Part shown: positions 1,373-21,152 of the stretch, one piece after another
How the letters are laid out: every line of letters starts with the position of its first letter
Position numbering within the stretch: the stretch's first letter is position 1
From: a virus
Virus record (IMG/VR): IMGVR_UViG_3300005264_000088
Span: 1-22,861 of that record
Direction: 5' to 3' (one strand)
DNA: 22,861 nt
Translations under genes and position numbers: made by a program
Notes under the pieces: generated by a model
What the model saw: the letters and a program-made list of their open reading frames with translations, nothing else
Database searches by the model: none
Told to the model about the DNA's origin: nothing

Positions 1373-1391
1373 ATTTCGTAACTTACGAAAT
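1373..1391. repeat. 19-bp palindrome, candidate dispersed centromere (parS-like), copy 1
   Basis: ATTTCGTAACTTACGAAAT is a perfect 9+1+9 inverted repeat. It sits in the gap between the tail terminator gene, whose TGA stop it touches, and the ribosome binding site of the sheath gene. Two other copies of the same motif occur at 6162-6180 and 20536-20554, the last inside the gene next to parA. The shared sequence, symmetry and link to the partition genes suggest binding sites for the partition protein. An operator for late genes is the main alternative. Confidence 0.6.
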
Positions 1392-1840
1392 CAATCAATT
1401 TCTAAATTTTCCATTTTTTCATGATTATCTTCTCTGATATAGTATTCATCTAGATTTATATCAAATTGGAATTGTAATATTTTTTTATTTTCATTGAATT
1501 TTGCATTTTCTACTTCTACTAAAACTGCTTCTCTATCTTCTGTTTCTGGTAATATTTCAATATAGTTATTTTCTATAAATAACTCCTCAAGTGATTCCTG
1601 CATATCTAATAATTCCACTTGATTAATATGTTTATCTTTTGGGAAATAAATTATTCTTACTGTTATATCCCTTGTCTTTGAGGTTTTCATAAAATCATCC
1701 ACTTTTATATTGTCTAATTCTATAAAAAAAGATGGTCTAGAAAATCCCTCCTCAACATCCTGTGTCTGGACCTCTATTTCTACTGGAAGTTTTCCCAAGT
1801 ATTTTCCTAGTGCTTCTAATATATTTTCGTATTTTGTCAT
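1391..1840 (-). CDS. phage tail terminator / tail completion protein (DUF6838-like)
   Basis: A 149-residue acidic protein. It has the pattern seen in tail terminator proteins of PBSX-like phages: an N-terminal helix (YENILEALGKYLGKLPVEIE), then FSRPSFFIELDNIKVDD, then a strand-rich region with 'DITVRIIYFP' and a late 'FQFDINLDEYY'. In this family the first helix is followed by 'RPSFFI' or similar. The protein would cap the growing tail and form the joint to the head. The ATG at 1840 follows TAGGTG. It stands between the gp10-like gene and the sheath gene, which is the expected place. The family call is from motif and order; no catalytic residues are expected. Confidence 0.72.
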   Translation of the reverse strand: MTKYENILEALGKYLGKLPVEIEVQTQDVEEGFSRPSFFIELDNIKVDDFMKTSKTRDITVRIIYFPKDKHINQVELLDMQESLEELFIENNYIEILPETEDREAVLVEVENAKFNENKKILQFQFDINLDEYYIREDNHEKMENLEID

Positions 1841-1853
1841 TATTTACACCTAC

Positions 1854-2279
1854 TTAAAATCCATTTTTCTTGAATATATCATTCTTGAAATTTTCTATAT
1901 TTGTTTCAAACTCTTCTTTATAGTCCTTTGCAGTATTATCAAATATATATAAACCTTTTTTAAATCCATGAGTTTCCCCATCAGATCCATCTTTTTTATT
2001 TTTAGCCTTTATAATGTGACCATTTTCTATTAGATGGGCTACACTACTTGCAGAATACGCATCTACTGATAATCCATCCTCACTATCATAGACATTCCCA
2101 GCTTTGATAGACTTAAAGTAATTACCACTATGTGCTTTTACTTTAGATTTTGCATTATTAAGAGTCTTGGTTTTTAATTTATTAGCTTCCTTTTTTAAAA
2201 AAACTTTAGCTTCTTTTCCACTAGATAAATCCTCTGAAATCTTTAATAAATCATTAGCAAAATCATCTAAATCACTCAT
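1854..2279 (-). CDS. HK97 gp10-like tail/neck completion protein
   Basis: The 141-residue protein resembles the HK97 gp10 family of head-tail or tail-completion proteins. Typical features are an N-terminal amphipathic helix (LDDFANDLLKISEDLSS), a lysine-rich stretch with KTKTLNNAKSKVKAHSGNYFKSIKAG, and a later AHLIENGHIIK motif (usually '..ve.GHR....'), which is a hallmark of the family. The ATG at 2279 follows GAGGAG, and that same sequence contains the stop of the upstream head-closure gene, so the two are translationally coupled. It lies 13 nt upstream of the terminator gene. It acts at the head-tail interface during assembly. Confidence 0.82.
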   Translation of the reverse strand: MSDLDDFANDLLKISEDLSSGKEAKVFLKKEANKLKTKTLNNAKSKVKAHSGNYFKSIKAGNVYDSEDGLSVDAYSASSVAHLIENGHIIKAKNKKDGSDGETHGFKKGLYIFDNTAKDYKEEFETNIENFKNDIFKKNGF

Positions 2280-2285
2280 AAATAT

Positions 2286-2621
2286 CTACTCCTCATATAA
2301 AAATACATTTAAATCTAAGTATTCATTACTATCATAATTAGGTAAAATATGGCTTATATCATACCTTTGACCTTTATAGATCACCCAATTAGCCTTTGAA
2401 ATATTAGTTTTTCTTATAAGTATTTTAAAATTAACAGTACTTTTAGTAGTATTAGCCTCCCCACCACTAGAAAACCCATAGATAGGAGTTATTTTTCCCC
2501 AAATTTTCTTTAGAAGCACTCCTTTATTTGAGGTACCAAGGTTTGTTTTAACCTTGGCATTTCCCCATATTTCAAGTCTATTATTTAGCCTACTAGCCAA
2601 AGATCTCTTATTTTTAGCCAT
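2286..2621 (-). CDS. phage head closure / head-tail adaptor protein
   Basis: The protein has 111 residues with the start chosen here. It carries SLASRLNNRLEIWGN at the start, a central GKITPIYG segment, STVNFKILIRKTN and a late YKGQRYDISHILPNYDSNEYLDLNVFL. This is the layout of the SPP1 gp16/HK97 gp9-type head closure family ('l..ri.i......W..i.p......t..i.iR......i..i.g..y.I..i'). An ATG three codons upstream (2630) overlaps the likely GAGG ribosome binding site, so the ATG at 2621, 9 nt after GAGG, is the better start. The gene overlaps the connector gene by 8 nt, indicating coupling. The product seals the portal exit and joins the tail. Confidence 0.8.
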   Translation of the reverse strand: MAKNKRSLASRLNNRLEIWGNAKVKTNLGTSNKGVLLKKIWGKITPIYGFSSGGEANTTKSTVNFKILIRKTNISKANWVIYKGQRYDISHILPNYDSNEYLDLNVFLYEE

Positions 2622-2901
2622 TAAGCTCATCCTCTTCTACCATAGCTTTTAATTTAGTGCATAAACATGAATAAATATTATTAACTTTAAACTCTACATC
2701 TCCTGAACTTCTATTTTCATATCTATCAGTTACAATTACACGTTGAGCCATCTTATATGTTTCTTTCTCTCCATATTTTTCAAATGTCGCCCCTGTTGAA
2801 TTTTCTATCTCTTCTTTACTAAACTTGAGTAGAGATGTGATGAGAGTATCCTCATCATCACCATCTACTCGTAAATACATTTTTATTTCATCTAATTCCA
2901 T
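2614..2901 (-). CDS. phage head-tail connector protein (gp6-like)
   Basis: A 95-residue protein beginning MELDEIKMYLRVDGDDEDTLITSLL, the classic opening of the HK97 gp6/SPP1 gp15 connector family ('l.e.K.yLri...dD..l..ll..a...ie..tg'). The helix that follows has KEEIENSTGATF. The middle YKMAQRVIVTDRYENRS region corresponds to the family's 'aili.v...Y.nR' helix. It forms the first ring below the portal. The ATG at 2901 follows AGGAGG. It is directly downstream of the capsid gene and overlaps the head closure gene. Confidence 0.86.
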   Translation of the reverse strand: MELDEIKMYLRVDGDDEDTLITSLLKFSKEEIENSTGATFEKYGEKETYKMAQRVIVTDRYENRSSGDVEFKVNNIYSCLCTKLKAMVEEDELNG

Positions 2902-2920
2902 CGTTTAAACCTCCTAGTCT

Positions 2921-4105
2921 TTAAACTACAGGAGTTACATCAACTTGACCAAGTATTCCAGCAGAAGTATCAAATTTAGAAACATCAAGTCTCATAATTC
3001 CTCTGATGTTAGTGAGGTTCTTAGTAAATGCATCTCCACCAATATTAGTTGATAGTAATGACATTTGTTCTCTATCAAATAAAACAATAGTTTCTTTTAA
3101 TGATCCCATAAATACAGGTGCCATCTTTTTAGCATTAACTGTTTTTGTTTTTAAAATTTTATTAGATAAAACTATAATTGGTCTTCCATTTAGTAACTTT
3201 TTAGTAGGATTTTTAGGATCTTTTTCTAAGATATAATTATCATTTTTATCTTTGATTTTATTAAAGAAATTAAATGAATCTTGGTTCATTACAGAGATCC
3301 CCATAGCTGATATTGCAGGATCTAAAGTTACATCAAATACATTCTTTACATCATCTAACCCTGTGATAGTTTTCTTAGTCAATGTTTCTATTAATGTTAT
3401 GATCATTGCATTTTCAGTAGCAGTTGATTTTTTAGCCAACCATCTATTTATATATGCTTTCAAGTTAGCAGTATTGTCTTTTAATAAAGAATTTGGAATA
3501 GGTAAAATTCCACCTTTATCCTTTATCGAATAGCTAACTTTTACAGTCTTAGGATTTGAAACACCCTTTATGTCTTCACCTTCAGTCATATCCTCCCATG
3601 GTGTATGTTCTGCATCTTTTTCCATGTTTCTAGATCCTGTTTTAGTGGTAACTGTTTCTACTGTTACTAACTCTCTTAGAGAACTAAAAGATCTCTTTAA
3701 CTCTTTTATTGCTGTCTTTTGATCTACAGGAATTAAGTACCCACCATCTTCTCCAGTATTAGAAGAGAACGAATTTTGAGCATCTAAGATATTTACATCC
3801 TCAATACTAGCTTGACCCCTAATCACATTGTAAAAAGAGTTTTCATAAGCAACTTCTTGATCATTTTCTCCTCCAAGACCTTGATTTAATATATTGTTTT
3901 CAAGAGGATTCCCGTTATTTGTATTCATCTCAGCATTTTCTGAGGCTTCTATCTCCTCTTGAATATCCAATTTTTTATTCTCTACCACTATTTTATTTTC
4001 AATTTCTGTTAGTTCTTCAGCAGTAACCCCATCTTTACTTAATAATTCCTGTGCCGTTACTCTAAGAGCTTGTATTTGAGCTTTAATTAAATCTGATTTT
4101 CTCAT
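2921..4105 (-). CDS. HK97-family phage major capsid protein
   Basis: The protein has 394 residues. The first roughly 100 residues are charged and helical, including VTAEELTEIENKIVVENKKLDIQEEIEASENAE, and match a scaffolding delta-domain removed by the adjacent protease. The shell domain follows: an N-arm, GEDGGYLIPVDQKTAIKELKRSFSSLRELVTVETVTT, which is the signature start of HK97-fold capsids ('ggylvP......i...l...s.lr.l'), then 'GVSNPKTVKVSYSIKDKGGILPIPNSLLKD', a spine-helix region, and a C-terminal domain with NGRPIIVLSNK and PVFMGSLKETIVLFDR. The ATG at 4105 follows GGGAGG. Its neighbours protease and connector are the standard HK97 order. Confidence 0.94.
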   Translation of the reverse strand: MRKSDLIKAQIQALRVTAQELLSKDGVTAEELTEIENKIVVENKKLDIQEEIEASENAEMNTNNGNPLENNILNQGLGGENDQEVAYENSFYNVIRGQASIEDVNILDAQNSFSSNTGEDGGYLIPVDQKTAIKELKRSFSSLRELVTVETVTTKTGSRNMEKDAEHTPWEDMTEGEDIKGVSNPKTVKVSYSIKDKGGILPIPNSLLKDNTANLKAYINRWLAKKSTATENAMIITLIETLTKKTITGLDDVKNVFDVTLDPAISAMGISVMNQDSFNFFNKIKDKNDNYILEKDPKNPTKKLLNGRPIIVLSNKILKTKTVNAKKMAPVFMGSLKETIVLFDREQMSLLSTNIGGDAFTKNLTNIRGIMRLDVSKFDTSAGILGQVDVTPVV

Positions 4106-4168
4106 TTGTTCCTCCCATAATTCTTTTATTTTGATATATATTTTTATTTTTACCTCTCATAATAAAAC

Positions 4169-4891
4169 TTAAACTATTAATAATTTTATTCTAGCTTTAG
4201 CAAGTTCTATTTGATTTTTTACCTCAGGATCTACTTCTTGTTTTTCACCTTCATTTACTATCTCAGGAATAACCCCATCTGCCATCATTACATTTTTTAA
4301 TTTTTCTATAACCTCTGGTGGCAACGTTCCATCGTTGTTTGTATAAGAATTTACAAAATCAATATTTTCATCAAACATATTTCCATCTACAAACCCTAAT
4401 TTCTTAGCTTTTTCAAGGTTTAACCAAGTTGTTTTATTCATTAATTCTAGTAATTCATCTCTCCCCATCTTGGTCTTGTCCATATAAGCATTGGCGATAC
4501 TTTCATCAATTGATTGTAGAGCTTCACCAGTACTTCCCATGGTGTTTTTATCTCCTTGAGTTCCAGTGGCAGAATTATGAATCATAATTTGAGCTGGTGG
4601 AGACATCAATATTTTATTGCACCCCATAACTGCCACACTAGCAGCACTAGCAGCGACACCCACTATTTTTCCAGTAACATCACCATCATAATCTCGTAAA
4701 CTTGAATATATCTCTGATCCAGCAAATACAGATCCACCACCAGAGTTTACATAGACCTCTAATTCCTCTCCTTTTTGAGCTTTCATGATAGCTTTGTTTA
4801 CTAAGTTAGGAGATGTAGCAGGAATATTAAAATAATCATAGTACCTTTGATGAGCATCGTTTATAATAGGACCTTTAATATCTATCCTCAT
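4169..4891 (-). CDS. ClpP-type phage head maturation (prohead) protease
   Basis: A 240-residue serine protease of the ClpP/S14 fold used to trim the capsid scaffold. The body begins RIDIKGPIINDAHQ. ELEVYVNSGGGSVFAGSEIYSSL (about residues 44-65) provides the oxyanion-hole strand. GVAASAASVAVMG carries the nucleophile Ser82, and IMIHNS supplies His105. The third residue probably lies in LEKAKKLGFVDG. The C-terminal 40 residues are charged and could guide packaging with the capsid. The ATG at 4891 lies one base after the portal stop, with its AGGAGG inside the portal gene's final codons, so the two are tightly coupled. Confidence 0.93.
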   Translation of the reverse strand: MRIDIKGPIINDAHQRYYDYFNIPATSPNLVNKAIMKAQKGEELEVYVNSGGGSVFAGSEIYSSLRDYDGDVTGKIVGVAASAASVAVMGCNKILMSPPAQIMIHNSATGTQGDKNTMGSTGEALQSIDESIANAYMDKTKMGRDELLELMNKTTWLNLEKAKKLGFVDGNMFDENIDFVNSYTNNDGTLPPEVIEKLKNVMMADGVIPEIVNEGEKQEVDPEVKNQIELAKARIKLLIV

Positions 4892-6148
4892 TTATTTACC
4901 TCCTTTCTTTTTATATTGTTTTCCTACATCATTTACTCCTATTGCATTACCATTGCCTAAAAGTTTGTTTCCATCTTCCATATACGGTAAATTTAGCTCC
5001 TCACGGACTTCATTAGGTGTCATGATAAAATTCATAGCATACTTAGAATAAACCTCTGATTTGGTTTTGTTGTCCATCTTAAACAATATTTTTTCATTAA
5101 TCATAAGTCTATATCCTTGCTGTAGTTCTTTTTCATGAAATAATTTATACGTTAATTCTTGCTCATATGTATTAAATAAAGGTTGTAATGAATTTACAAA
5201 GAAATCTATCTGTTGAGTTTCAGAGTTACTATAACTTGATTTTGTATAATCATTGATAACATTAGGTTTTATTCCAAAAGCCGCTGCAAGTTGTAAGGCT
5301 GAATTTTTATTGTTTTCAAAGAATTGAGCATCTGCTAATTTCATGTCAAGAATTTGTGCAGTTGATCCCATAGGAATGGGGATAATACTCCCACTTCCCT
5401 TACTTTTAGAAAATTCTTCTATTTTTTTAGCTAGGTTTCCTTCCTTTTTCTTGCTAAGTTCCCCTGTGTAATGTACTACGATTTTTGAACCAAACATATT
5501 TGCTTTATATAGCTTATTTAAAAAACCAATTGCATTTTTACCACTATTTATTTGTGTTTTTAAAATTTCTTTTACTGGAATTCCTGCTATTCCATTAAAT
5601 GAAACACTAGTTTTAAAATGTAAAATCTCATATTGCTCAAATCTATATTCATTTCCAGTACTTCTATCTGTCCACACATACCAAATTGCATTTTTTATAC
5701 CTATGATTCCCTTATCATCTACCCATATCCTCACATCTTCAGATGGTAGTACCCATAAATGCTTTAATTTACCAGTAGATCTATTCATCTCTATATACAC
5801 AAAGGCATTACCATAGTGCAATTTATTAAGTTCTACAGTCCCCCATAGGGTTGATGCTGAATAGTATGGATTAGGTCTTACATTTAATATCAAGTCTAAA
5901 TTAGAATCAAATTTTTTCTCTTTTCCTTTTTTTTCTGTTTTTTGGACTACTTCCCAAGGCATCTTACTTAAAGTTTCTGAAAGATGTTTCATACAAATAT
6001 AATAAATTGTCTCAGATAACTCTGTGGAGTTTTCTATTTGATTTATATCTATTCCAAGAATATTTGCTAAGCCTGAATCCATCCAATTTCCTATTGGTTG
6101 TCCTCGATTTTTAAATAATCGGTTTCTCAATTTATTGAACACTCCCAT
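4892..6148 (-). CDS. HK97-family phage portal protein
   Basis: A 418-residue portal subunit forming the dodecameric DNA channel at the capsid vertex. Family landmarks are ETIYYICMKHLSETLSKMPWEVV near residues 45-67 ('v...v..ia..va.lp..v'), NLDLILNVRPNPYYSASTLWGTVELNKLHYGNAFVYIEMN (about 85-125), LWVLPSEDVRIWVD, and the RFEQYEILHFKTSVSFNGIAGIPVKEILK segment with 'ilHfk....dg..G'. Later it has AAAFGIKPNVINDY and the NEVREELNLPYMEDGN helix typical of the C-terminus. The ATG at 6148 follows AGGAGG. A parS-like palindrome lies just upstream, between this gene and terminase. Confidence 0.94.
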   Translation of the reverse strand: MGVFNKLRNRLFKNRGQPIGNWMDSGLANILGIDINQIENSTELSETIYYICMKHLSETLSKMPWEVVQKTEKKGKEKKFDSNLDLILNVRPNPYYSASTLWGTVELNKLHYGNAFVYIEMNRSTGKLKHLWVLPSEDVRIWVDDKGIIGIKNAIWYVWTDRSTGNEYRFEQYEILHFKTSVSFNGIAGIPVKEILKTQINSGKNAIGFLNKLYKANMFGSKIVVHYTGELSKKKEGNLAKKIEEFSKSKGSGSIIPIPMGSTAQILDMKLADAQFFENNKNSALQLAAAFGIKPNVINDYTKSSYSNSETQQIDFFVNSLQPLFNTYEQELTYKLFHEKELQQGYRLMINEKILFKMDNKTKSEVYSKYAMNFIMTPNEVREELNLPYMEDGNKLLGNGNAIGVNDVGKQYKKKGGK

Positions 6149-6161
6149 TTACTCCTCCTAC

Positions 6162-6180
6162 ATTTCGTAACTTCCGAAAT
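6162..6180. repeat. 19-bp palindrome, candidate dispersed centromere (parS-like), copy 2
   Basis: ATTTCGTAACTTCCGAAAT differs from copy 1 at one base and so has one mismatched pair. It lies in the 43-nt gap between the large terminase stop and the portal ribosome binding site. Its position (gene gap, just upstream of a ribosome binding site) mirrors copy 1. The third copy is in the gene following parA. Confidence 0.6.
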
Positions 6181-6191
6181 CACATTTAATT

Positions 6192-7925: not shown

Positions 7926-7940
7926 ATCTATTCCCCCATC

Positions 7941-8396
7941 TTATATCCCTCCAAACTCCTCCTCTACTTTTTGGTCTTCTGTATTTATCTTATTAGATCC
8001 TAAATTCAATCTACTTTCAGAGGTCAATCCTAATAATGCTGAATATTTTTTTATTTCATCAGAATATTTAATCTCCAGTGATACTAGTGGATTATGCTCA
8101 CGTCCTACCATAACTCCCTGTTTAGTCAGATTTCCACTTATCTTCTTGTATCTAATAAAAGCATTACAATATAGTCCTAAGTTGTTATAGTCTAAATTAC
8201 TGATCATTGATTTTTTTCCAAATTGTTTAACTAGTCTAACCCACTCTTTTTTTGCTTCTTCATTTACTAACCACTTTGGAGGATCTTCTAGCTGATCTCT
8301 TCCCACATAGACCACTTCTTCTTCTAGCTTTCTTTTATTTATTTCAGATTTTGTATTATGTCTTGTTTGTGCTTCTACAATTTTTTTAGGTGGCAT
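7941..8396 (-). CDS. phage terminase small subunit, P27 family
   Basis: The protein has 151 residues with the start chosen here. It resembles P27-type TerS: a basic N-terminus (MPPKKIVEAQTRHNTKSEINKR), then 'PPKWLVNEEAKKEWVRLVKQF' (the family's 'pP.wL...ak..W......l'), a helix LDYNNLGLYCNAFIRYKKISGNLTKQGVMV, and the late LVSLEIKYSDEIKKYSALLGLTSESRLNL. An upstream in-frame ATG at 8429 has no ribosome binding site. The ATG at 8396 follows AAGGAG by 9 nt and gives the family's usual N-terminus. TerS recognises the packaging site and loads the large subunit, encoded 15 nt downstream. Confidence 0.88.
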   Translation of the reverse strand: MPPKKIVEAQTRHNTKSEINKRKLEEEVVYVGRDQLEDPPKWLVNEEAKKEWVRLVKQFGKKSMISNLDYNNLGLYCNAFIRYKKISGNLTKQGVMVGREHNPLVSLEIKYSDEIKKYSALLGLTSESRLNLGSNKINTEDQKVEEEFGGI

Positions 8397-8519
8397 TTTT
8401 CCCAACTCCTTTTTTTGAAAAAATTTCAAATCTTGCGATTATCTCCCATTGGGAATTTTGCGTGAGAAATTCTAAAGCTGCGATGATGGGCTATAAGTGA
8501 TAAACTTTATTGATACCCC
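8397..8519. other. non-coding gap between HNH and TerS genes, candidate packaging (cos) region
   Basis: The 123 bp hold no gene. Visible structure is TCCCATTGGGA (8444-8454, 5-bp arms) and three related words, TTGCGA, TTGCGT and CTGCGA, at about 8434, 8458 and 8479. In phages with an HNH endonuclease next to TerS, the cos site often lies between or close to these genes, so this is a reasonable place to look. The sequence alone does not show a cleavage site. Confidence 0.25.
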
Positions 8520-8942: not shown

Positions 8943-8947
8943 AGTAA

Positions 8948-12910: not shown

Positions 12911-12926
12911 TATACAAAATTGTATA
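12911..12926. promoter_or_regulatory. repressor operator, copy near the replication gene
   Basis: TATACAAAATTGTATA has perfect 7-bp arms around AA. Aligned with the two other operator-promoters, its right arm falls on a -10-like TATAAG on the minus strand, with a degenerate -35 (TATTAA). This suggests a weak promoter for the replication gene under repressor control. Confidence 0.6.
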
Positions 12927-13155: not shown

Positions 13156-13184
13156 ATTATACTCAATTGTATAATTAAAGTCAA
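13156..13184 (-). promoter_or_regulatory. leftward early promoter with operator in the spacer
   Basis: On the minus strand, -35 TTGACT (13184-13179), a 17-bp spacer and -10 TATAAT (13161-13156) form a near-consensus sigma-70 promoter. The operator TATACTCAATTGTATA (13158-13173 on the plus strand) overlaps the spacer and -10. The promoter is nearly identical to the rightward one at 18814. It would drive the Cro-like gene and possibly those beyond. Confidence 0.85.
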
Positions 13185-13280: not shown

Positions 13281-13367
13281 TACCCCCCTTAGTTTGAAGG
13301 TATTCAAACAGAATACCCTCAATCAGAAGGCATTCAATTTGAACCCCCTCAAAACAGAAGGGTTCAA
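13281..13367. repeat. three tandem 30-bp-period stem-loop repeats
   Basis: Three 27-bp units (13281-13307, 13311-13337, 13341-13367), each separated by 3 nt, share the layout arm, CCCTCAA-like, AGAAGG, arm, TTCAA. The arm bases change in step: GAACC/GGTTC in one, GAATACC/GGCATTC in the next, TACC/GGTA in the third. The first unit also has GTTTGAA/TTCAAAC. They lie in the 3' untranslated part of the subtilase transcript, before its terminator. They could be RNA hairpins, or binding sites for a protein. Confidence 0.65.
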
Positions 13368-13405
13368 AAAAGCTTGAATTTATTGAGGGTAAAAGATTTT
13401 TTATT

Positions 13406-15670
13406 TTATAAAACATCTATTTTATTTTCTATATTTATTTCTAAATTAACAGGGTTATATTCTTCTATTTCTAATTCGTTTGTCAATGCTAAATTTAATT
13501 CATCATTCTTAGACTTTATTGTAATAAAAACACAATAATCTAAAAATAAATCTTCTTTAGGAGTGATGTTTTCAATATAATTGTTATATTCTGGTGTCAA
13601 TGTTAAATACCATTTTTTATTCTTAATCACTGCATTTTTTTTTGCATTTTGCAGAGTAGAAAGGTTAACAGAATATTTTTTTAAAGGAGAATATTTACCA
13701 TTTTTTCTTAGTGCTTCTTCTGTATTAGATTTAACTATTCTTTTTGAAAAATTATTTTCTAACAATAAATTTATGGGATTTTTCGTTCCTATTGCATATT
13801 TAGCTCTTGGATTTGTTAGAGTTCTATCTCTTTTTTCACTATAGGTACCAAAAGCAACTTTTAGATCAGTTTGAGAATATTCTAACCCTTGATTTTTTAT
13901 TAATATAGGATCAACTATAGAAGTTAAAATAATCTCTCCTGATAGTTCTCCTAATTCATCAATTAATTCTTCTGGGAAAGGGATATCTAAACTTCCTATA
14001 CTTTCTCCTTTAGGGATACTTCCGTTAAAAATCATTGTTATCTCATTATCAGCATCGTGTAATATTTCATCTATTTTAGGTGGAACCCCATGACCATATT
14101 TGAATCTAATATTTTCTTCTTCTTCCATCATTTCTTCTAAATATGAAGACTTATGGACTAATAATCCTTTGATAAACATAGGGCTAAAGGGTTCCTTGAT
14201 TTTTTTTGCTAAATGAGCTGCTATTGCAGATATTTGAGGTGTAGAAAAACTTGTCCCAGCATTTTGAATTTCTTCTCCATTAGTATCTATGACTACGATC
14301 CCAGCAGCATTTTTAGTTTTTTTGCAAACACTTCCTCCGTAATAAACTAAATCAGGTTTAACTGTATTATATGGTCCAGGACCAACTTTACTAAAAGAAG
14401 ATACTTTATTTTTTACTGCTGTATTTATAGTTGTATGGTTAATTGATCCAACTGTCAAGGCTCTTAAACTTTCTGCCCCACAATTAATTGAACTATTTAA
14501 ATGATTAGTACAGTTTCCTGATGATTTTACAAATAATACATTATATTTTTTTTGTAAAAAATCTAAGTTCATGGCAAAAGAAGAAAACTTATCTTTAGAA
14601 ATCTTAGTTTTGGAACCCAAAGAGAGGTTCCATATCTGAGCTTTATTGCTATATTTTTTTAAAGAATTTTCTAAATTAATTAGAATTTCAGCTTCACTAG
14701 TAATTTTTTCTATCATCGCAACACAACTAATAATTTGACATCCTTCTACTCCGAGATTCAAGCTGTTTAATTGCTCACCAAAACATACTAAGCTACTTAC
14801 TTGTGTTCCATGATTATCATTTATGTCGTCTAATATATATGGCGAATATTGTCTTTTACACCAATTTTTTATAACATCTTGGTTTACTCCAGAATCAAAA
14901 ACTCCAACTAATGGATATTCTTTAGTTGGATCTATTTCAGGAACAGAAGGAACATCAAAAAAATCTATTTTAAAATCATCTCCAAAATCAAAGGTAAGCA
15001 TTTCTTCTACTGATTCAACAAAGGGCATTTTTTCTAATTCACTAAAAAAATCTATATCCTGATCATTAATTGCTTCATATATAATTTCATTATTAGGATA
15101 TTTAATTTTTTTTATATGAACATTTTCTAATTTTTCAAATAACAGTCTTTCCTCTCTTTCATTGAGTTTTTCATCATGAAAATCTACTAATTTAATTTTT
15201 AATTTTTGTATATTCATTAAATTTTTATCTATTTCCATTTTATATGTTTTGATATCATCTATTGCAGCGACAATAGTTTCTTTATTTTTAGATTTAGCTA
15301 GCCTATTTGATATAGTATCAGTATTTTTAGCATCTATTGAATAAAGAAGTCTATTATCGCCTTTTAAAGCGACTATCTTACTTAGATCTTTATCTATGAA
15401 TATTTCATTAATACTATCTCTATAACTTTTGGCTTTAGCTCTTGGGTTGATAATGGCTTCTACTATAATTGGAAATTCTTCGTACTCTAAACTTCTTTTC
15501 TTTACTTCATCTTTTAGAATTCCTGTGTTTTTTATTAAAAATTCAAATTTTTCGTCAGTATAATTTTCTTGTATCCATTTAGGAATATCATCGTTTCCTC
15601 CGCCTTCTATTCCTCTAAAATCTTTTTCTTTTCTAAATGTAACCTTTTTAATTAAGTTTTTCTTCCCCAT
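13406..15670 (-). CDS. ietS: subtilisin-like serine protease, IetS-type
   Basis: A 754-residue S8-family peptidase without a signal peptide, so cytoplasmic. The catalytic triad is Asp259 (VGVFDSG), His287 (DNHGTQVSS) and Ser474 (AGTSFSTP), with oxyanion Asn386 (SSGN). A roughly 245-residue N-terminal extension has PIIVEAIINPRAKAKSYR and helical parts, and a 250-residue C-terminal extension is of unknown fold. An AAA-ATPase gene overlaps its start by 23 nt. This ATPase-plus-subtilase pair matches the IetAS system, first described as a plasmid stability/incompatibility locus and later as antiphage. It probably cleaves a target when released by the ATPase or by an infection signal. The ATG at 15670 follows AAGGAG. 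The pair's class is well supported; the substrate is unknown. Confidence 0.85.
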   Translation of the reverse strand: MGKKNLIKKVTFRKEKDFRGIEGGGNDDIPKWIQENYTDEKFEFLIKNTGILKDEVKKRSLEYEEFPIIVEAIINPRAKAKSYRDSINEIFIDKDLSKIVALKGDNRLLYSIDAKNTDTISNRLAKSKNKETIVAAIDDIKTYKMEIDKNLMNIQKLKIKLVDFHDEKLNEREERLLFEKLENVHIKKIKYPNNEIIYEAINDQDIDFFSELEKMPFVESVEEMLTFDFGDDFKIDFFDVPSVPEIDPTKEYPLVGVFDSGVNQDVIKNWCKRQYSPYILDDINDNHGTQVSSLVCFGEQLNSLNLGVEGCQIISCVAMIEKITSEAEILINLENSLKKYSNKAQIWNLSLGSKTKISKDKFSSFAMNLDFLQKKYNVLFVKSSGNCTNHLNSSINCGAESLRALTVGSINHTTINTAVKNKVSSFSKVGPGPYNTVKPDLVYYGGSVCKKTKNAAGIVVIDTNGEEIQNAGTSFSTPQISAIAAHLAKKIKEPFSPMFIKGLLVHKSSYLEEMMEEEENIRFKYGHGVPPKIDEILHDADNEITMIFNGSIPKGESIGSLDIPFPEELIDELGELSGEIILTSIVDPILIKNQGLEYSQTDLKVAFGTYSEKRDRTLTNPRAKYAIGTKNPINLLLENNFSKRIVKSNTEEALRKNGKYSPLKKYSVNLSTLQNAKKNAVIKNKKWYLTLTPEYNNYIENITPKEDLFLDYCVFITIKSKNDELNLALTNELEIEEYNPVNLEINIENKIDVL

Positions 15671-16754
15671 GATTACTCCTTTTTAATTCATTATCGATTT
15701 GTCTTAAAGAAATATTTAAATGGCTAGCAATATCACTTCTACTTACTTTTCTATAATTAAGAAAGTGAATTAACGATTCTTGGCCTCTTTGGTAATTAAA
15801 ATGATAAAATTCATTTAAAATATCAGAATAAGATATAGATTCTTTTCCTGCTAGTAAACAATTTCTTATTGTAGAAACAACTATTTTTTTTATTTCTGAA
15901 GGACTTTCTTTAAAAATTAGTTTTTCAAAAACTAATTTTTTAGATGGTGTTATTTTAAAAGAAAAATTAAACTTTTCAAGCTCTTTAGTAAAAATTTTAT
16001 ATTTTGTTTCAACAGAGATTATATCAGTATTAATAATAGTACTAAACCTTCTCCAAATAGCAGGATCTAGTAATTTTTCGTGATTAGTTGCTGCTAATAA
16101 AATATTATTTTTAGTAAATAAATCAATATTTTGTAATAAACTATTTACAACTCTTTTTAATTCTCCTAATTCTTTGGAGTCATCTCTTAATTTTGCAATA
16201 GCATCAAACTCATCAAGAAATAATATACATGGTTTACTATTCGCATATTCAAAAACTTTTCTAATATTTTTGGCTGTATTTCCTAATAAAGATGAAATAA
16301 CTGCATCTAATTTTACTGTAACTAGAGGTAAGTTTATTTTTTTAGCTATTAAATGAGCTATTGCTGTTTTTCCAGTTCCTGGTTGACCATGTAATAACAA
16401 AGAATAAGGAAGATCTAAATTATGTCTTTTTAGTTCTTCTTTTTTTTCTATTCCTAAAATAAAATTATCTATTTGCTGTTTTTGATAGGTTTCTAATATT
16501 AAACCTTTGTGATAGTTTGAATCTATAGTCACTTCTACCATTTCTAAACTACTGTCTTTATCTTTAGGCTTAGTCATAAATGAATCAAAATGCACTGGAT
16601 GAATTGAGTTGTTGTTTAATATTCTATTTATTTCTTTAGAAAATTTTAAATCTTCATCTGCTATATTTTCAGATAATAATTTACTATAATTTTTTACTCT
16701 AATATGATCTTTTTTTAGTCCTGCTTCAATTATTTTTAATATTTCTGTCTTCAT
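15648..16754 (-). CDS. ietA: AAA-family ATPase, IetA-type
   Basis: A 368-residue protein with a central AAA+ domain: Walker A GQPGTGKT (123-130), Walker B ILFLDEFD (D181/E182), sensor 1 AATN (N224) and arginine finger region PAIWRRF (R235/R236). This is the classic, FtsH/spastin-like set, suggesting a hexameric ATPase. The N-terminal 90 residues are helical and the C-terminal tail has an HTH-like SRSDIASHLNISLRQIDNELKR. It pairs with the overlapping subtilase gene as in IetAS, where both proteins are needed. It may hold the protease in check and recognise phage or plasmid cues. The ATG at 16754 follows GGAGGA. A 17-bp direct repeat with a -10-like core lies upstream. Confidence 0.85.
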   Translation of the reverse strand: MKTEILKIIEAGLKKDHIRVKNYSKLLSENIADEDLKFSKEINRILNNNSIHPVHFDSFMTKPKDKDSSLEMVEVTIDSNYHKGLILETYQKQQIDNFILGIEKKEELKRHNLDLPYSLLLHGQPGTGKTAIAHLIAKKINLPLVTVKLDAVISSLLGNTAKNIRKVFEYANSKPCILFLDEFDAIAKLRDDSKELGELKRVVNSLLQNIDLFTKNNILLAATNHEKLLDPAIWRRFSTIINTDIISVETKYKIFTKELEKFNFSFKITPSKKLVFEKLIFKESPSEIKKIVVSTIRNCLLAGKESISYSDILNEFYHFNYQRGQESLIHFLNYRKVSRSDIASHLNISLRQIDNELKRSNHGEEKLN

Positions 16755-16766
16755 TGCTTTCCTCCG

Positions 16767-16845
16767 AAATTATAACGTTTTTCAATATAATTATATCATT
16801 TTCAGAGAAAAAAATACAGTTTTTTAAAAAATTATAACGTTTTTC
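16767..16845. repeat. 17-bp direct repeat upstream of ietA
   Basis: AAATTATAACGTTTTTC occurs at 16767-16783 and again at 16829-16845, 62 bp apart. On the minus strand each contains TATAAT preceded by AACGT, so each could be a -10 element, with no good -35. The first sits at the ribosome binding site of ietA; the second covers the end of the 139-aa gene. Possibly two sites for an autoregulator or a promoter duplication. Confidence 0.45.
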
Positions 16846-17251
16846 GAGATAAAGTATTAAGAAGGCCTAAAGAATAGTTTTGCCTGATAAAGCTATTTAA
16901 TTCATTAAATAAATCTTCTTTTGAATTTATAGTAGCTGTATAATTTTTATCTTCAAGAGAACTATTAAATATTATTGGATAACCTCCTAAATAATAATAT
17001 TCAATATAAAGCATATTAACTCTATAATTTCTTAAATGTGGAGCACTAACATAATAATTTATTCTAGCATCATATTTAGAAACTTCGGGAGTTTCTAACA
17101 GAATAACTTCTTCATAAAATTCTAATTTTTTAAATACTCCTTTTAAATGAAAAGATAATTTTTTCAAAATTTCTTTAATTTCTTTTTCTATATCTTCTTT
17201 GACTTTAAGGTCTTTTAAGTTGATTTCATCAAATGTCATTGTTTTTTCCAT
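16832..17251 (-). CDS. unknown 139-aa protein in the defence-like cassette
   Basis: I do not recognise a family. The 139-residue protein has a charged helical N-terminus (LKDLKVKEDIEKEIKEILKKLSFHLKGVFKKLEF), then a strand-rich aromatic part (EEVILLETPEVSKYDARINYYVSAPHLRNYRVNMLYIEYYYLGGYPIIFNSS), then a helical tail. No cysteine, metal site or membrane segment is seen. It starts with ATG 17251 after GAGAGGTGG, 13 nt past the stop of the EEP nuclease gene, so the two are probably one transcript and may act together. It ends 77 nt before ietA. It could be an immunity or sensor partner for the nuclease, but that is guesswork. Confidence 0.65.
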   Translation of the reverse strand: MEKTMTFDEINLKDLKVKEDIEKEIKEILKKLSFHLKGVFKKLEFYEEVILLETPEVSKYDARINYYVSAPHLRNYRVNMLYIEYYYLGGYPIIFNSSLEDKNYTATINSKEDLFNELNSFIRQNYSLGLLNTLSRKTL

Positions 17252-17264
17252 ATTTCCACCTCTC

Positions 17265-18038
17265 TTAATTAAAAACTATACTTATAGGCATATGATCGCT
17301 AATCTTAGGCTTATATCCTTTATCTAGTAAATGATTAGTTTCTAATTCTACTATTTTAAAATTTTTTTTATCAAATAAACTCACAAGACTTTTTGTCATA
17401 ATAACCTGATCTAAAAGGTGCCAAGATCTCCCAAACCAATGACTCCCTAGAGTAATCTGATCAAAATTTCCTAATAAATGATAACTAGGGTTGTAGTATA
17501 GATTTCTTTCTCTACCTTGATTTGTTATAATGCTACTTCCTAAAGCACAATTAGAAACTTTAAATGACATTAAATCTTCAAATTCATGAGGATTTAAATT
17601 AAAATCACCTATAAATATAATGTCTTCTGTATTCCTATCTTTTTTTAAAGTGTCTAATTTTTGTTCTAACATATCAAATATACTATTAATAGACTCTACT
17701 TGACCTGGTGAGACTTTACTTGGCAAGTGAACAGGAACTATAAGAAAATTTCTGATTTCATCATTTAAGAAAATCTCAATTTCTTTTATCATATATCTCT
17801 TATCTTCTTCTACATCAAAACTTTCAAATAATTTATATTTAAAAAAATATCTTAATTCTTTAGACTGTCCTTTTACTTTGATTTCAACTTTATTAAGCTC
17901 TTTAAATTCAAATTTTACTGGGAGAACTATTTGTTCACCTTCTGCTAGAATTAATATATCAGGGTCTTCCTGATTTATTAATTCTTCTATATGAATACTT
18001 AAATCTTTACTCTGAGTATTCCAAAATAAAATTTTAAT
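17265..18038 (-). CDS. endonuclease/exonuclease/phosphatase-fold (EEP) protein with apparent ATT start
   Basis: The full frame gives 257 residues. A short version from the first ATG (17792) would lose two catalytic motifs. Residues in order: ILFWNT with metal-coordinating Asn7, DILILAEGE with Glu33, VPVHLPS with His104, IIFIGDFN with Asp145/Asn147, HLLDQV with Asp210, and the ISDHMPI ending with Asp248/His249. That is the complete EEP signature, so it likely cleaves phosphodiester bonds in DNA, RNA or a small molecule. No ATG, GTG or TTG fits; ATT at 18038 lies 6 nt after AAGGAGG and gives the family-like N-terminus 'MKILFWNT'. It stands 48 nt after the repressor gene and is followed by the 139-aa gene. 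Confidence 0.78.
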   Translation of the reverse strand: MKILFWNTQSKDLSIHIEELINQEDPDILILAEGEQIVLPVKFEFKELNKVEIKVKGQSKELRYFFKYKLFESFDVEEDKRYMIKEIEIFLNDEIRNFLIVPVHLPSKVSPGQVESINSIFDMLEQKLDTLKKDRNTEDIIFIGDFNLNPHEFEDLMSFKVSNCALGSSIITNQGRERNLYYNPSYHLLGNFDQITLGSHWFGRSWHLLDQVIMTKSLVSLFDKKNFKIVELETNHLLDKGYKPKISDHMPISIVFN

Positions 18039-18044
18039 AATACT

Positions 18045-18051
18045 CCTCCTT
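18045..18051 (-). promoter_or_regulatory. ribosome binding site of the EEP gene
   Basis: AAGGAGG on the minus strand, 6 nt before ATT (18038) and 3 nt before another ATT (18041). The site is strong and no usual start codon follows at proper distance, supporting an ATT start or a recently mutated ATG. Confidence 0.5.
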
Positions 18052-18086
18052 CTTTCGCAATTATATTTTCTTATTAAGTTATATAC

Positions 18087-18746
18087 CTAATGATTAAAAA
18101 CTCCTACTTTTTTTCCTACGATATAAAATTCATCGGATTCATTTATTATGATAGGATCATAATCTTTGTTATCACTGGATAATATTATATCTCCACGATC
18201 TGTTTTTTTATATCTTTTTAATAAGCCTTCATCATTTAAAATGAATGCTCCAACTTCTCCATTTTCAGGCATTACTTCTTTTTTTATAAGAACTGTATCA
18301 CCGTTTTTGATATCAGGGTGCATAGAATTACCATCTACCTTAATACCTATTACATCTCCCCTAAATCCATTTGTTTGTGGGAGAGGCATATGTCCAATGA
18401 TACCACTTTTGCAACTTCCAAAACCTGCCGAAATAGAATCATAAATAGGAATCTGTTTAAATTCAGTAATTGGATTATTTAAATCTATATTCCCTACTTT
18501 TATTTTTCTCATTTTTTCAGGTATTTTTTCATTTTCAACCATTGCTATTATTTCTTGCTGTTCTTCTGTTGGAATTGAAAATTCATTGAAAAATTTCTCT
18601 AAAAATTTATAAGAGGGTAACCTTTTCCCTGTTTTATAGTGACTTATGGATGACAAAGAGACTTTCATTACTGTAGAAATATAGTCTAATGTATATTCAT
18701 TTTTTATCATAAATTCATTCAAATATTCTTTGAATTTTATTTCCAT
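18087..18746 (-). CDS. CI/LexA-type prophage repressor with S24 self-cleaving domain
   Basis: A 219-residue lysogeny repressor. The N-terminal XRE HTH (residues 8-55) has YTLDYISTVMKVSLSSISHYKTGKR. The C-terminal peptidase S24 domain has the Ala107-Gly108 cleavage site (DSISAGFG), nucleophile Ser141 (DGNSMHPDIKNGD) and Lys177 (LLKRYK), so RecA-stimulated self-cleavage and SOS induction are expected. The ATG at 18746 follows AAGGAG. It diverges from the plus-strand operon across a region with three operator-like palindromes. Downstream, 48 nt away and on the same strand, begins the accessory cassette, which could be co-transcribed in the lysogen. Confidence 0.94.
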   Translation of the reverse strand: MEIKFKEYLNEFMIKNEYTLDYISTVMKVSLSSISHYKTGKRLPSYKFLEKFFNEFSIPTEEQQEIIAMVENEKIPEKMRKIKVGNIDLNNPITEFKQIPIYDSISAGFGSCKSGIIGHMPLPQTNGFRGDVIGIKVDGNSMHPDIKNGDTVLIKKEVMPENGEVGAFILNDEGLLKRYKKTDRGDIILSSDNKDYDPIIINESDEFYIVGKKVGVFNH

Positions 18747-18929
18747 AATAGATACTCCTTTTTAGTTAATAATTTATTATATATTATTTTTATACAAAAA
18801 AGTAAAATAAGACTTGACTTTAGTTATACAAAGTTGTAAAGTTTATTAAAGAAGTTTTACAAAAATGTATAATCGATTAAAAAATAACATTATTATTTAA
18901 AATAAAATTTAATAAAAAGGGGGGGCATT
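18747..18929. promoter_or_regulatory. divergent control region between repressor and plus-strand operon
   Basis: The 183-bp gap contains operator-like sites TATACAAAAAAGTAAA (18791-18806, weak right arm), TATACAAAGTTGTAAA (18825-18840) and TTTACAAAAATGTATA (18856-18871). The last two start 31 bp apart, about three helical turns. The rightward promoter is described separately. A leftward promoter for the repressor is less clear; TATAAT at about 18775 on the minus strand is a possible -10. The arrangement is that of a lambda-like switch. Confidence 0.75.
18814..18842 (+). promoter_or_regulatory. rightward promoter of the par-int operon
   Basis: -35 TTGACT (18814-18819), 17-bp spacer, -10 TAAAGT (18837-18842). 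The spacer and -10 are covered by the operator at 18825-18840. The bases TTGACTTTAGTTATACAA are almost the same as in the leftward promoter at 13184 (minus strand), indicating a duplicated control element. Confidence 0.8.
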
Positions 18930-19385
18930 ATGGTAAGGCCAGTATCAGCACTATCACTAGAATTAGAAAGAAGTATGAATATGCAAGTAAGGGTAGAAAC
19001 ATTTGAAGAACACCTAAGACATGGAGAGATTATTGACCAGTTGGATGATGAGAGGCGAATTAAGAGTTTTAATTTAGATAAATGGAATGAAGATATGCAA
19101 AAATCATTTGCTAAAACAAGGAAGAGTATTTTAAAACTGGATGATCTTACAGAGATTAAAGAGGCTTTAAAGGAGTTGGATAAAAAAGTAAATAGTTTTA
19201 ATAAAACCTACTCTAAAAAAATAAAGCAGATCAGAGCCCTTGAACTTGAATATGAAAAATTAGATGATGAACTCAGGACTTGGTTAATAAACTATGCAAC
19301 AAAGTGTAGGGGAAAACTCAGGGAGGAAAACTCAGGTATTGAGAAAAAGATGATAGAAGAGAATATTTTAAAACGATTTCTGTAG
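18930..19385 (+). CDS. coiled-coil protein of unknown function, first gene of the par-int operon
   Basis: 151 residues, starting ATG after a GGGGGG-type ribosome binding site (AAAAGGGGGGCATT-ATG). The protein is almost wholly helical and strongly charged. Residues 70-120 (LTEIKEALKELDKKVNSFNKTYSKKIKQIRALELEYEKLDDELRTW) show heptad spacing typical of a coiled coil. No enzyme motif, membrane segment or zinc site is seen. As the first gene after the repressor-controlled promoter, it would be made early after induction. I do not recognise its family. It could be a regulator or a DNA-structure protein of the partition module. Confidence 0.68.
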   Translation: MVRPVSALSLELERSMNMQVRVETFEEHLRHGEIIDQLDDERRIKSFNLDKWNEDMQKSFAKTRKSILKLDDLTEIKEALKELDKKVNSFNKTYSKKIKQIRALELEYEKLDDELRTWLINYATKCRGKLREENSGIEKKMIEENILKRFL

Positions 19386-19402
19386 GCAGTAGGAGGGTGA
19401 TA

Positions 19403-19576
19403 GTGGATATTAAAATAAAAGGAAAAATAAAAGATTGGGACACTTTTTACAGGAATATTATTCCACAACTAAAGTCATTGACCTTTAGAGGTAAAACAGT
19501 AACTACAATAGATAAAATAGAGAGTGAAGCAATAGATGCTTTCTTACTCAATGAAGAAGTAGAATGGAGTTATTAG
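19403..19576 (+). CDS. small protein of unknown function (57 aa)
   Basis: A short gene from GTG 19403 with AGGAGGG 5 nt upstream to TAG 19576. The sequence MDIKIKGKIKDWDTFYRNIIPQLKSLTF has a WD pair and a basic start, followed by an acidic C-terminal third ending EEVEWSY. No known domain is seen. The strong ribosome binding site, the 17-nt distance from the previous gene and the stop that overlaps the next ribosome binding site support it as a real gene. Confidence 0.62.
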   Translation: MDIKIKGKIKDWDTFYRNIIPQLKSLTFRGKTVTTIDKIESEAIDAFLLNEEVEWSY

Positions 19577-19587
19577 GAGGGTATAAA

Positions 19588-19758
19588 ATGAAAAAACAAA
19601 AATTAAGACCAAATCATCAAGAGATTATAGCTATGAGTTTAGAGGATTTAAACTTTATATTAAAAAGCCAATATGTGTTGACAAATAGGCAGACCAAACA
19701 AATTAAATCAGAAATTAAGAGAAAAAGAAGAATAACAGGGCAGAAGGTGATTGTCTAA
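19588..19758 (+). CDS. small basic protein (56 aa) before parA
   Basis: Starts at ATG 19588, 6 nt after AGGAGGG. An upstream in-frame ATG (19564) precedes that ribosome binding site and is rejected. The sequence is very basic (KKQKLRPNHQEIIAM near the start and TNRQTKQIKSEIKRKRRITGQK near the end) with a helical middle LEDLNFILKSQ. It may bind DNA. The stop TAA shares its final base with the ATG of parA, showing tight coupling, so it may be a small regulator of the partition operon. Confidence 0.62.
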   Translation: MKKQKLRPNHQEIIAMSLEDLNFILKSQYVLTNRQTKQIKSEIKRKRRITGQKVIV

Positions 19759-20474
19759 TGGCTAAAGTAATTTTATTTAAAAACAATAAAGGAGGGGTAG
19801 GGAAGTCATTATTATGCTTCTGGACTGCCCACATCCTTTCTACATTATCAAAAACAAGTGATGATAAGAAAAATAAAGTACTAATCCTTACATCTGATTC
19901 ACAAAATAATATCATGCAGATGGCAGGAACTAAATCAGGCTATGGTGATGGACTTCAAGGATATATTGATGGTAGAGGTTCAGATCTAATAAGATTAAGA
20001 GAAGGACTATTTTATGTTCCTTTGACATCTACTGGAATAAAAAGAACCTTTGAAACCAGGTTCCACGATGTAATAGAGGTTTTCAAAAAACAATATGACT
20101 ATATCCTTATAGATGGATCACCAGTATTAAAGTTAGATAATATCTTTCTGGAAGTCAGTGACAAAGTAGTTATACCTACTTTCCTTGATAATGTAACTAC
20201 TAAGGGAATGATCAATCTTATCAAAGAGGTAGGAGTGGATAGAGTGGCTATGATTGTTCCTAACAGAGTTGGAAAAAGTAAGATGGAACGAGAACATCTA
20301 AATAAATTAAAAAAGAGTCTGAGTGGTGTAGGAGCAACGATTACTAATCCAATTTATCAGACTACAAAAATTATGCAGCTTACAGAAAAATCAAAAACAA
20401 TTATGGAAACTAAAAGTAAACAATATTATGAGATAAAACAAATATTTGCAAAAATTGTAAAGGCTGTGATGTAG
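19758..20474 (+). CDS. parA: ParA-family partition ATPase
   Basis: A 238-residue ParA/Soj-type ATPase. It has the deviant Walker A KNNKGGVGKS (8-17) with signature Lys11 and Lys16, a Walker A' region DSQNNIMQM, and Walker B YDYILIDGSP. It lacks a long N-terminal HTH, so it is of the small ParA class. It would bind DNA non-specifically and move the ParB-parS complex, spreading copies of a low-copy plasmid. Stop and start of the next gene directly adjoin (TAG-ATG), typical for parAB. Presence in a phage genome with an integrase points to plasmid-like maintenance. ParA-like proteins can also have other roles, such as conjugation or positioning. Confidence 0.9.
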   Translation: MAKVILFKNNKGGVGKSLLCFWTAHILSTLSKTSDDKKNKVLILTSDSQNNIMQMAGTKSGYGDGLQGYIDGRGSDLIRLREGLFYVPLTSTGIKRTFETRFHDVIEVFKKQYDYILIDGSPVLKLDNIFLEVSDKVVIPTFLDNVTTKGMINLIKEVGVDRVAMIVPNRVGKSKMEREHLNKLKKSLSGVGATITNPIYQTTKIMQLTEKSKTIMETKSKQYYEIKQIFAKIVKAVM

Positions 20475-21152
20475 ATGGATGTGTTTGAGGAACTGCAATT
20501 AGCAGTAAAAAAAGAAATATATGTTTCAGAATTTGATTTCGGAAGTTGCGAAATTGAAAAAGCAGACATTGAATTCATAAAAAACAGTGAGCAGAAATTA
20601 AGAAAGAGGTTTATGGGAATATCTGAATCTCTCTATGATATATGTATAACTCTTAATCAGATCTCTTTAAAATTTAAAAAATCTGGTGATTTTATGAAGT
20701 GGTATGAAGCTAATGGATTGACTAAAGATAATATTTCAGAGTTCAATAAAAGGTTTATTTTGTTCCAAGAGTTCAGAGATAAAAAAGACTTCATTGCATC
20801 CCTTTCTAACCAATCGGTTAAATTTTTAACTCATAAAGATGTGACCGCAGATGCCAGGGAAAAAATAATAGAAGGTGGAATAAAAAAAGCTGAAACTATT
20901 AAAGAGCTTTTAACTCCTATAAAGGATCAGATAGTAATTGAGTTTAAAGAGAAAACTAAAAGTTATGTGAACTATAAAAAGTTAGAGAAAATGAAAACTA
21001 GGATCACCAAAGTAGAAGATGGGAATGAATTAAATTCTTTAAAAGCAGATTTAGAAGCCTTAGAGATCCATTTGAAGGAAATGAAAAAAGCTGTTAAGGA
21101 TAAAGAAAAGGAATGGGAAAATAAAAATAATTTGAAATTGGTGCAGGGGTAG
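20475..21152 (+). CDS. putative ParB-role partner of ParA (DUF3102-like pattern)
   Basis: 225 residues, immediately after parA. No canonical ParB/Spo0J 'GERR' box is seen. The region 45-95 (GISESLYDICITLNQISLKFKKSGDFMKWYEANGLTKDNISEFNKRF) has the shape of DUF3102-type phage/plasmid proteins ('l.eIg..L.e.K......f..Wle..g.s...a.r..'), which is compatible with HTH DNA binding. The C-terminal 80 residues form a charged coiled coil (ITKVEDGNELNSLKADLEALEIHLKEMKKAVKDKEKEWENK) for dimerisation. A 19-bp palindrome, also found at two distant places, lies in its own coding sequence at codons 21-27. Order after parA and this candidate parS suggest it is the centromere-binding protein. Confidence 0.6.
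   Translation: MDVFEELQLAVKKEIYVSEFDFGSCEIEKADIEFIKNSEQKLRKRFMGISESLYDICITLNQISLKFKKSGDFMKWYEANGLTKDNISEFNKRFILFQEFRDKKDFIASLSNQSVKFLTHKDVTADAREKIIEGGIKKAETIKELLTPIKDQIVIEFKEKTKSYVNYKKLEKMKTRITKVEDGNELNSLKADLEALEIHLKEMKKAVKDKEKEWENKNNLKLVQG
20536..20554. repeat. 19-bp palindrome, candidate dispersed centromere (parS-like), copy 3
   Basis: ATTTCGGAAGTTGCGAAAT, read on the minus strand ATTTCGCAACTTCCGAAAT, fits the same motif as copies 1 and 2 with one mismatched arm pair. It lies inside the putative ParB-role gene and encodes FGSCEI there. Centromeres within or close to parB are usual, so this copy links the other two to partition. Confidence 0.6.

Follow-up and report, generated by a model that had tools for sequence, protein, structure and literature searches.

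Dispersed palindromes linked to a ParA-partner module in Fusobacteriota phages and type IV secretion elements: putative scattered centromeres

The IR sites of phage N15 lie scattered along its genome. The N15 Sop system consists of a ParA-type ATPase, SopB and four palindromic IR sites on a linear plasmid prophage (PMC7205306). The element SGI1 uses its own parS-like sequences to hijack the ParABS system of IncC (PMC10954446), and L5-type mycobacteriophages carry stoperators, asymmetric 13-mers bound by the immunity repressor and dispersed in short intergenic gaps (PMC9283540). Here we describe a 19-bp palindrome that occurs three times in a 22,861-bp virus record (IMG/VR record IMGVR_UViG_3300005264_000088; the whole stretch is called the window below), which is a fragment of a contractile-tailed phage genome. 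One copy lies inside the gene directly behind parA, here called the partner gene. Our preferred reading, to which we give a probability of roughly 0.6, is that the palindrome is the dispersed centromere of a ParA system with a ParB-like partner lacking a cytidine triphosphatase (CTPase) domain, carried by integrating elements.

N15 is the nearest precedent, and the window resembles it in combining a phage ParA, a putative DNA-binding partner and palindromic sites. It differs from the linear plasmid prophage in carrying a tyrosine integrase gene (21428-22552, plus strand; Pfam Phage_integrase, E 2.2e-27), in having a partner without a detected ParB-family sequence match or CTPase domain, and in its different palindrome, with one site inside the partner gene. 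A first-pass annotation of the window had likened it to N15. The dispersal of the copies would fit that parallel if they act as partition sites, whereas the integrase and a close relative in a 1.04-Mb contig, one of several relatives in megabase contigs, do not fit upkeep as a plasmid. Another counterpart is Fusobacterium phage Funu1, where ParA is followed by a partner homologue (HMPREF1993_00013, annotated as a hypothetical protein) with 34.7% identity over 76% of the query; its in-gene site differs by one changed arm letter. The same partner match was found in a 218-kb Fusobacterium animalis plasmid record (NZ_CP077186.1, L081), in a phage-like early region with ParA at about 210-218 kb, some 30-40 kb from lpxA and lpxC.

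Copy 1 of the palindrome (1373-1391) lies 3 nt 5' of the Shine-Dalgarno sequence of the tail sheath gene and takes up 19 bp of the 32-bp gap preceding that gene. Copy 2 (6162-6180) lies 2 nt 5' of the Shine-Dalgarno sequence of the portal gene and occupies 19 bp of the 43-bp gap between terL and portal. Copy 3 (20536-20554) makes up codons 21-27 of the partner open reading frame (ORF) and encodes (D)FGSCEI, and its place near the gene start is kept in relatives with 30-42% protein identity. All three copies read ATTTCGKAAGTTRCGAAAT on the coding strand, with symmetry at 18/19 positions in copy 1 and at 16/19 in copies 2 and 3, and two of the three are 14-19 kb away from the par genes. No fourth copy was found in the whole window, even when 3 mismatches were allowed; at that setting shuffled sequences gave a mean of 0.44 matches, and 2 of 100 shuffles reached three. 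Base composition alone predicts 0.0023 exact occurrences of ATTTCG-N7-CGAAAT per window. Hence the three palindromes are not due to chance, as the first-pass annotation had held, and its account of three copies, two in narrow late-gene gaps and the third in the gene after parA, was confirmed.

The window parA (19758-20474, plus strand) encodes a 238-amino-acid ATPase with the deviant Walker A motif KGGVGKS, the type of ATPase that characterizes type I partition systems. It matches Pfam AAA_31 (E 3.8e-15) and CbiA (E 1.5e-7) as well as the ParA-like phrog_164 (E 5.9e-28). The partner gene (20475-21152, plus strand) encodes a putative centromere-binding protein of 225 amino acids with a ParB-like helix-turn-helix (HTH) region and a long C-terminal helix, which matches phrog_32652 (E 2.6e-34), a family of unknown function.

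A scan of 2.9 million viral contigs for the motif alone yielded 32 stretches, about half of which were judged to be of other origin by G+C content and context. Both a partner homologue and ParA were encoded in 7 of the 18 motif-found records tested, with partner identities of 32-42% in six of them and 90% in one (G001); the other 11 gave neither protein, several of these being short fragments. Two further partner-bearing records, G002 and G003, were found by protein instead of motif. Each of the nine partner-bearing viral records has a palindrome towards the 5' end of its partner gene, and in two of these (G007 and G013) the arms are intact and one centre letter differs from AANTT.

A profile built from the nine partners was searched against 98 Fusobacteriota genomes and gave 80 matches in 41 of them. 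In the same genomes the pattern ATTTCGNRANTYNCGAAAT occurred at 57 sites in 18 genomes, compared with 5 for a reversed-pattern control. The 19-bp site was present in 14/15 genomes with a strong partner match (E<1e-40, a cut-off chosen after the list was seen) and in 4/83 others (Fisher p 1.3e-12); one of these four, G082, has partner fragments at contig ends. When site-to-partner distances were taken for 70 of the 80 matches, the 10 weakest being omitted, 17 of the 57 sites fell in or at a partner gene and 16 at 5-50 kb on the same contig, while 5 were beyond 50 kb and 19 were on contigs without a typed partner match. The motif is thus tied to the partner gene in relatives of the window. A host-chromosomal motif was rejected, since 80/98 genomes lack an exact 19-bp site, and spread throughout the host chromosome, which the first-pass annotation would have counted against its own proposal, was not seen. 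The sites in the examined regions sit in phage or type IV secretion loci.

Gene by gene, we studied the 24 of 80 partner matches with E<1e-40, which represent 23 distinct genes. All 23 have a site of the palindrome type within the gene or up to 3 kb downstream, so that a cis site is linked to the par genes throughout. An exact site lies near the gene start, at the DFxxxEI codons, in 13/23; two more genes (L127 and L162) have a one-mismatch site at these codons, and two (L137 and L138) an exact site later in the gene, in another frame, encoding FRNFRN. In L154 an exact site follows right behind the stop codon. Four genes have the site 53-476 nt downstream, in a 20-bp form (L143 and L141) or with changes in both arms (AATTCG..CGAATT in L140 and TTTTCG..CGAAAA in L142, from a looser scan that covered 265 kb in 15 loci), and one (L139) has a 20-bp site 2,966 nt downstream. 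The partner adjoins ParA in 22/23 loci, the remaining one (L138) being cut by a contig end. Sequence comparison thus establishes the module, its sites and the linkage between them, and supports the view that the palindrome belongs with the parA-partner module.

Positions were compared over 77 distinct sites: 21 fall within partner genes, 25 stand immediately before a ribosome-binding site, another 21 are inside other ORFs and 10 lie elsewhere. Sites recur at the sheath gene, at a phage lysozyme gene, at a YqbQ-like gene and before an MIE(I/F)DSE gene, where they form a tandem pair. The nearest genomic relative of the window (G084; terL 93% and ParA 94% identical) carries four sites over 28 kb, one of which (L169:8139) precedes the sheath gene at the same position as copy 1. 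An element in G079 has the same pair of genes, with 71% (ParA) and 67% (partner) identity to those of the window, and palindromes at three gene boundaries, together with genes for VirB8, TrbI, a type IV secretion coupling protein, TrbC, a T2SSE-type ATPase, a topoisomerase and an integrase. No relaxase was identified in this element, so that the label "conjugative element" rests on the genes just named. Because the same parA-partner-site unit occurs in a type IV secretion element, a signal specific to phage late genes was rejected. Next to one and the same module, sites have thus arisen among genes that are unrelated to each other.

An AlphaFold2 model of the partner, built on 15 homologues, was all helical with a mean predicted local distance difference test (pLDDT) score of 77. 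ParB or Spo0J took the first three Foldseek rows, where the best E was 0.17 at a probability of 0.97, and no Foldseek match fell below E 0.001. In VIA-align, 10 of the top 11 rows were DNA-binding domains of ParB, Spo0J or Noc, the best reaching Z 8.4 across 107 residues, between positions 28 and 150 of the model, and the other ParB/Noc rows Z 6.4-7.7. The model is therefore suggestive of a ParB/Spo0J/Noc-like DNA-binding domain, at modest scores. Pfam and NCBIfam searches found no ParB or CTPase domain in the partner and no family above cut-off, and the sequence lacks a GERR motif, which we take to be the mark of the N-terminal ParB/CTPase domain; by domain content, motif and all-helical model the partner does not look like a canonical ParB CTPase clamp. 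When the partner profile was run against PDB sequences, no DNA-binding relative emerged; the best match was 2dgj (E 0.0018), in the C-terminal region. Pfam UPF0137, presumably tied to chlamydial pGP6-D, matched 3/15 partners weakly (best E 0.001). Compared with the chromosomal ParB-parS and Noc-NBS systems, the module shares the modelled fold at these modest scores and the letters TTTC in its half-sites (ATTTCG in the window; ATTTCCC and GTTTCAC in the NBS and parS oligomers of PMC8429893). It differs in the lack of a detected CTPase domain, in ATTTCG arms that are 7-8 bp apart, and in palindromes that follow mobile elements where examined and do not cover the host chromosome.

According to the preferred reading of a dispersed centromere, the product of 20475-21152 would most likely bind the palindrome as a dimer, reading a half-site ATTTCGNRA with a C/G centre. 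A role of the partner as the palindrome binder is well supported by comparison across relatives; binding itself and partition by the module are inferred. The primary site would be the one within the partner's own coding sequence, through which the gene might also be autoregulated, and further copies would have arisen at other places, either within genes or, as is often the case, in the very short space that separates a stop codon from the ribosome-binding site behind it. Bound partner would then contact ParA and become the cargo that the nucleoid-bound ATPase moves or tethers, and an excised circular or newly entered element would thereby be positioned, segregated and inherited.

Several observations weigh against this reading. 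Dispersal of the sites is not universal: the par-bearing G002 and G003 have one site with intact arms, the in-gene one, so that the scattered centromeres proposed by the first-pass annotation are supported in part: they gain from the linkage to the module, from the modestly ParB-like model and from the dispersal in several phages and a type IV secretion element, and lose by these two records. Conversely, sites occur away from the par genes. In the genomes 24/57 are more than 50 kb from a typed partner match or on contigs without one, the looser scan gave three matches away from partner genes (L065:664, L080:23211 and L080:33403), and three genomes without any partner match (G052-G054) share one site, which in L179 is close to a phage lysozyme gene. 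In G079 and G084, one to four sites are present in each of the prophage regions A, B, C, E, F and G, where neither parA nor the partner was detected. The palindrome in related phages that lack the par genes, which the first-pass annotation had named as a refuting observation, thus does occur. The fold evidence is also qualified, since the scores lie within the range that the tool warns may reflect a common arrangement, and the unrelated Raf1 stands in VIA-align row 3 (Z 7.4), among the ParB/Noc rows. Helical models reach middling Z by chance. Finally, a tyrosine integrase sits beside the parA module in the window, and contigs of 1.0-3.5 Mb harbour several relatives, so that a constant need for partition is not obvious. 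Either partition would count only while the element is excised or entering a cell, or the module has another task.

The par-less regions share late genes and some site positions with par-bearing phages, and both G079 and G084 also hold a par-bearing element in the same genome. In regions A and G a serine recombinase gene, with Resolvase and Recombinase domains in region A, follows the replication gene where region D has the par genes. Module swapping or use of the sites in trans are possible explanations. SGI1 offers a possible model, by analogy, for prophages that ride on the partition system of another element; here the relation seen is co-residence in genomes. A wider proposal would be a Fusobacteriota-wide partition module of integrating phages and type IV secretion elements, with a centromere that is dispersed and lies partly in coding sequence, foremost in that of its own ParB-like gene, and with further sites on co-resident par-less prophages that may ride on, or be controlled by, their par-bearing neighbour. 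We consider this wider proposal rather unlikely.

No report of the palindrome motif or of a partition role for the partner was found in the literature searched, which mostly excluded subscription journals and was available in part. Within that scope the system would represent ParA-based partition in an unreported form, for which the partner-site linkage is strong and the function inferred. If so, scattered centromeres would extend from plasmid prophages to integrating phages and type IV secretion elements of another phylum, and would add a ParB-like protein that lacks a CTPase domain and whose site is predicted precisely. The natural series of sites (in the gene, moved within it, moved downstream, 19 or 20 bp long, changed in both arms) would suit the study of coevolution between centromere and binding protein under coding constraint. 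It also raises the question of why an integrating element would need partition.

An alternative that we consider improbable, while taking it seriously, is transcription control, in which the partner would act as a silencer or roadblock at dispersed sites in the manner of cluster A mycobacteriophage stoperators, holding down late or transfer genes when the element is integrated and regulating its own gene through the in-gene site. The 25/77 sites just 5' of a ribosome-binding site agree with this, as do the short intergenic spaces occupied by stoperators (PMC9283540) and the several carriers in megabase contigs, which look integrated. However, the palindrome is symmetric and linked to a ParA partner, whereas stoperators are asymmetric, oriented with transcription and bound by the immunity repressor (PMC9283540). 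Moreover, 31/77 sites lie inside non-partner ORFs or elsewhere, and the ParA neighbour is left unexplained. The S24 repressor of the window was disfavoured as the palindrome binder, since the repressor/Cro region has a different repeated motif that supplies candidate operators of its own.

It is less probable still that ParA and the partner serve a role other than segregation, such as control of host growth or division during transfer, or anchoring or packaging; the sites would then serve to gather the partner on the element. Precedents exist in ICEclc, whose ParA acts with Shi in growth arrest (PMC6812849), and in Noc, which controls division from scattered sites (PMC8429893) and whose DNA-binding domain is among the fold matches of the partner. 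Against it, no membrane-targeting or Shi-like feature was noticed in the partner, although none was searched for.

The anatomy of the sites bears on how they are read. Over the 77 distinct sites (79 in the spacing counts, for which locus sets and flank keys differ), the half-site is ATTTCGNRA, with the arms fixed by the search, and the centre is C or G in 73/77. Positions 7 and 13 pair no more than by chance (Watson-Crick in 24/77, compared with 19.6 expected if independent; p 0.13), and positions 8 and 12 are Watson-Crick pairs in 53/77. The lack of pairing at positions 7 and 13 speaks against an RNA stem and favours a dimer that reads two half-sites. Six-letter arms occurred at spacing 7 (79 sites) and spacing 8 (5 sites), and at none of the spacings 2-6 and 9-13, in 87 loci totalling 1.52 Mb, many of which were fetched for the 7-spaced motif and none for the 8-spaced one; five-letter arms additionally gave single matches at spacings 6, 10, 11 and 13. 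The 20-bp form had 21 exact places in the 98 genomes; at 15 of them a partner homologue lies no more than 21 kb away, and at 11 of the 15 it is a remote homologue. The partner tree groups the site types, with 8 changes where shuffling gave a mean of 11.7 and 0/200 shuffles were as low; near-copies contribute to this. On this comparison the symmetric variants, 20 bp long or changed in both arms, track the divergence of the partner, a pattern of coevolution.

The proposal that the inverted repeat is an mRNA hairpin before ribosome-binding sites, affecting stability, processing or translation, is very improbable. Sites do adjoin Shine-Dalgarno sequences in 25/77 cases, and the three window copies share one sense relative to transcription. 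The hairpin was disfavoured by the missing covariation at positions 7 and 13 and the incomplete pairing at 8 and 12, by sites in the middle of genes and downstream of the partner, and by the link to a ParB-like partner, which it does not explain.

The in-gene site allowed selection on DNA to be separated from selection on protein. The phenylalanine (Phe) codon within the site is TTC in 13/20 partner genes, compared with 41/280 other Phe codons of these genes (p 1.6e-6); the test read 20 of the 23 genes, 3 being unmatched by the expression used, and excluded L155 (G025:C5), whose partner row equals that of L144. In the window, TTC accounts for 35/261 Phe codons counted. The 7 partner genes that use TTT coincide with those in which not even a degenerate site is found at that place, and a related peptide persists in them. 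The stretch that encodes a conserved peptide thus also holds a DNA site, and the site alone may disappear or shift, which at the sequence level amounts to selection on the DNA. Conservation of the protein alone, with the in-gene copy encoding DFxxxEI and the other copies a coincidence, accounts for the related peptide kept where the DNA site is lost and is otherwise refuted by the TTC/TTT switch, the other-frame and downstream sites and the enrichment over the control.

The left side of the window holds the contractile tail sheath gene (phrog_1480) and late genes on the minus strand, and the right side the S24 repressor, parA, the partner gene, a small DNA-binding protein and the tyrosine integrase; the phage, integrase-bearing and contractile-tailed, is related to phages of Fusobacteriota. 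The small DNA-binding protein (21178-21453, plus strand; phrog_1877, E 6.1e-8) is possibly an excisionase, judging by its place ahead of the integrase gene. Around the gene of the S24/CI-type repressor (18087-18746, minus strand) and a small HTH gene lie candidate CI/Cro operators that resemble TATACAAARTTGTAWA: those at 12911 and 18825 match it exactly, the one at 18856 has 1 mismatch, and those at 13158 and 18791 have 2; the scan also matched 16635 with 2 mismatches and many places with 3. The repressor gene itself contains a degenerate palindrome (18406-18424) with a TTTTGCAACTTCCAAAA core, which departs from copy 3 at 4 positions and may be a decayed site or due to chance. The phage further contains a gene pair for a subtilase (Peptidase_S8, E 1.8e-32) and an AAA ATPase (E 2.4e-32) at 13406-16754, which to us resembles a cargo or defence module.

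Cetobacterium sp. 2A (G025) has near-identical partner copies on contigs C1 and C5, with exact palindromes on C1 and C5 and one-mismatch palindromes on C1, C3, C4 and C5; these may be repeats at which the assembly broke, or the copies may be extrachromosomal. For the remote partner homologues L157-L160, two of which (L157 and L158) have 20-bp palindromes, phmmer found no ParA nearby. In G094 C2, G103 C18 and G104 C2, 20-bp palindromes, mostly ATTTCGACCGCGGTCGAAAT, occur in 2-3 copies up to 2 kb from remote partner homologues. In six loci (L066, L145, L146, L148, L167 and L176) a palindrome lies in frame in a lysozyme gene, where it encodes HFESYEM; the L176 copy matches Phage_lysozyme at 6e-35, and the palindrome is presumably close to the usual place of the catalytic glutamate in such enzymes.

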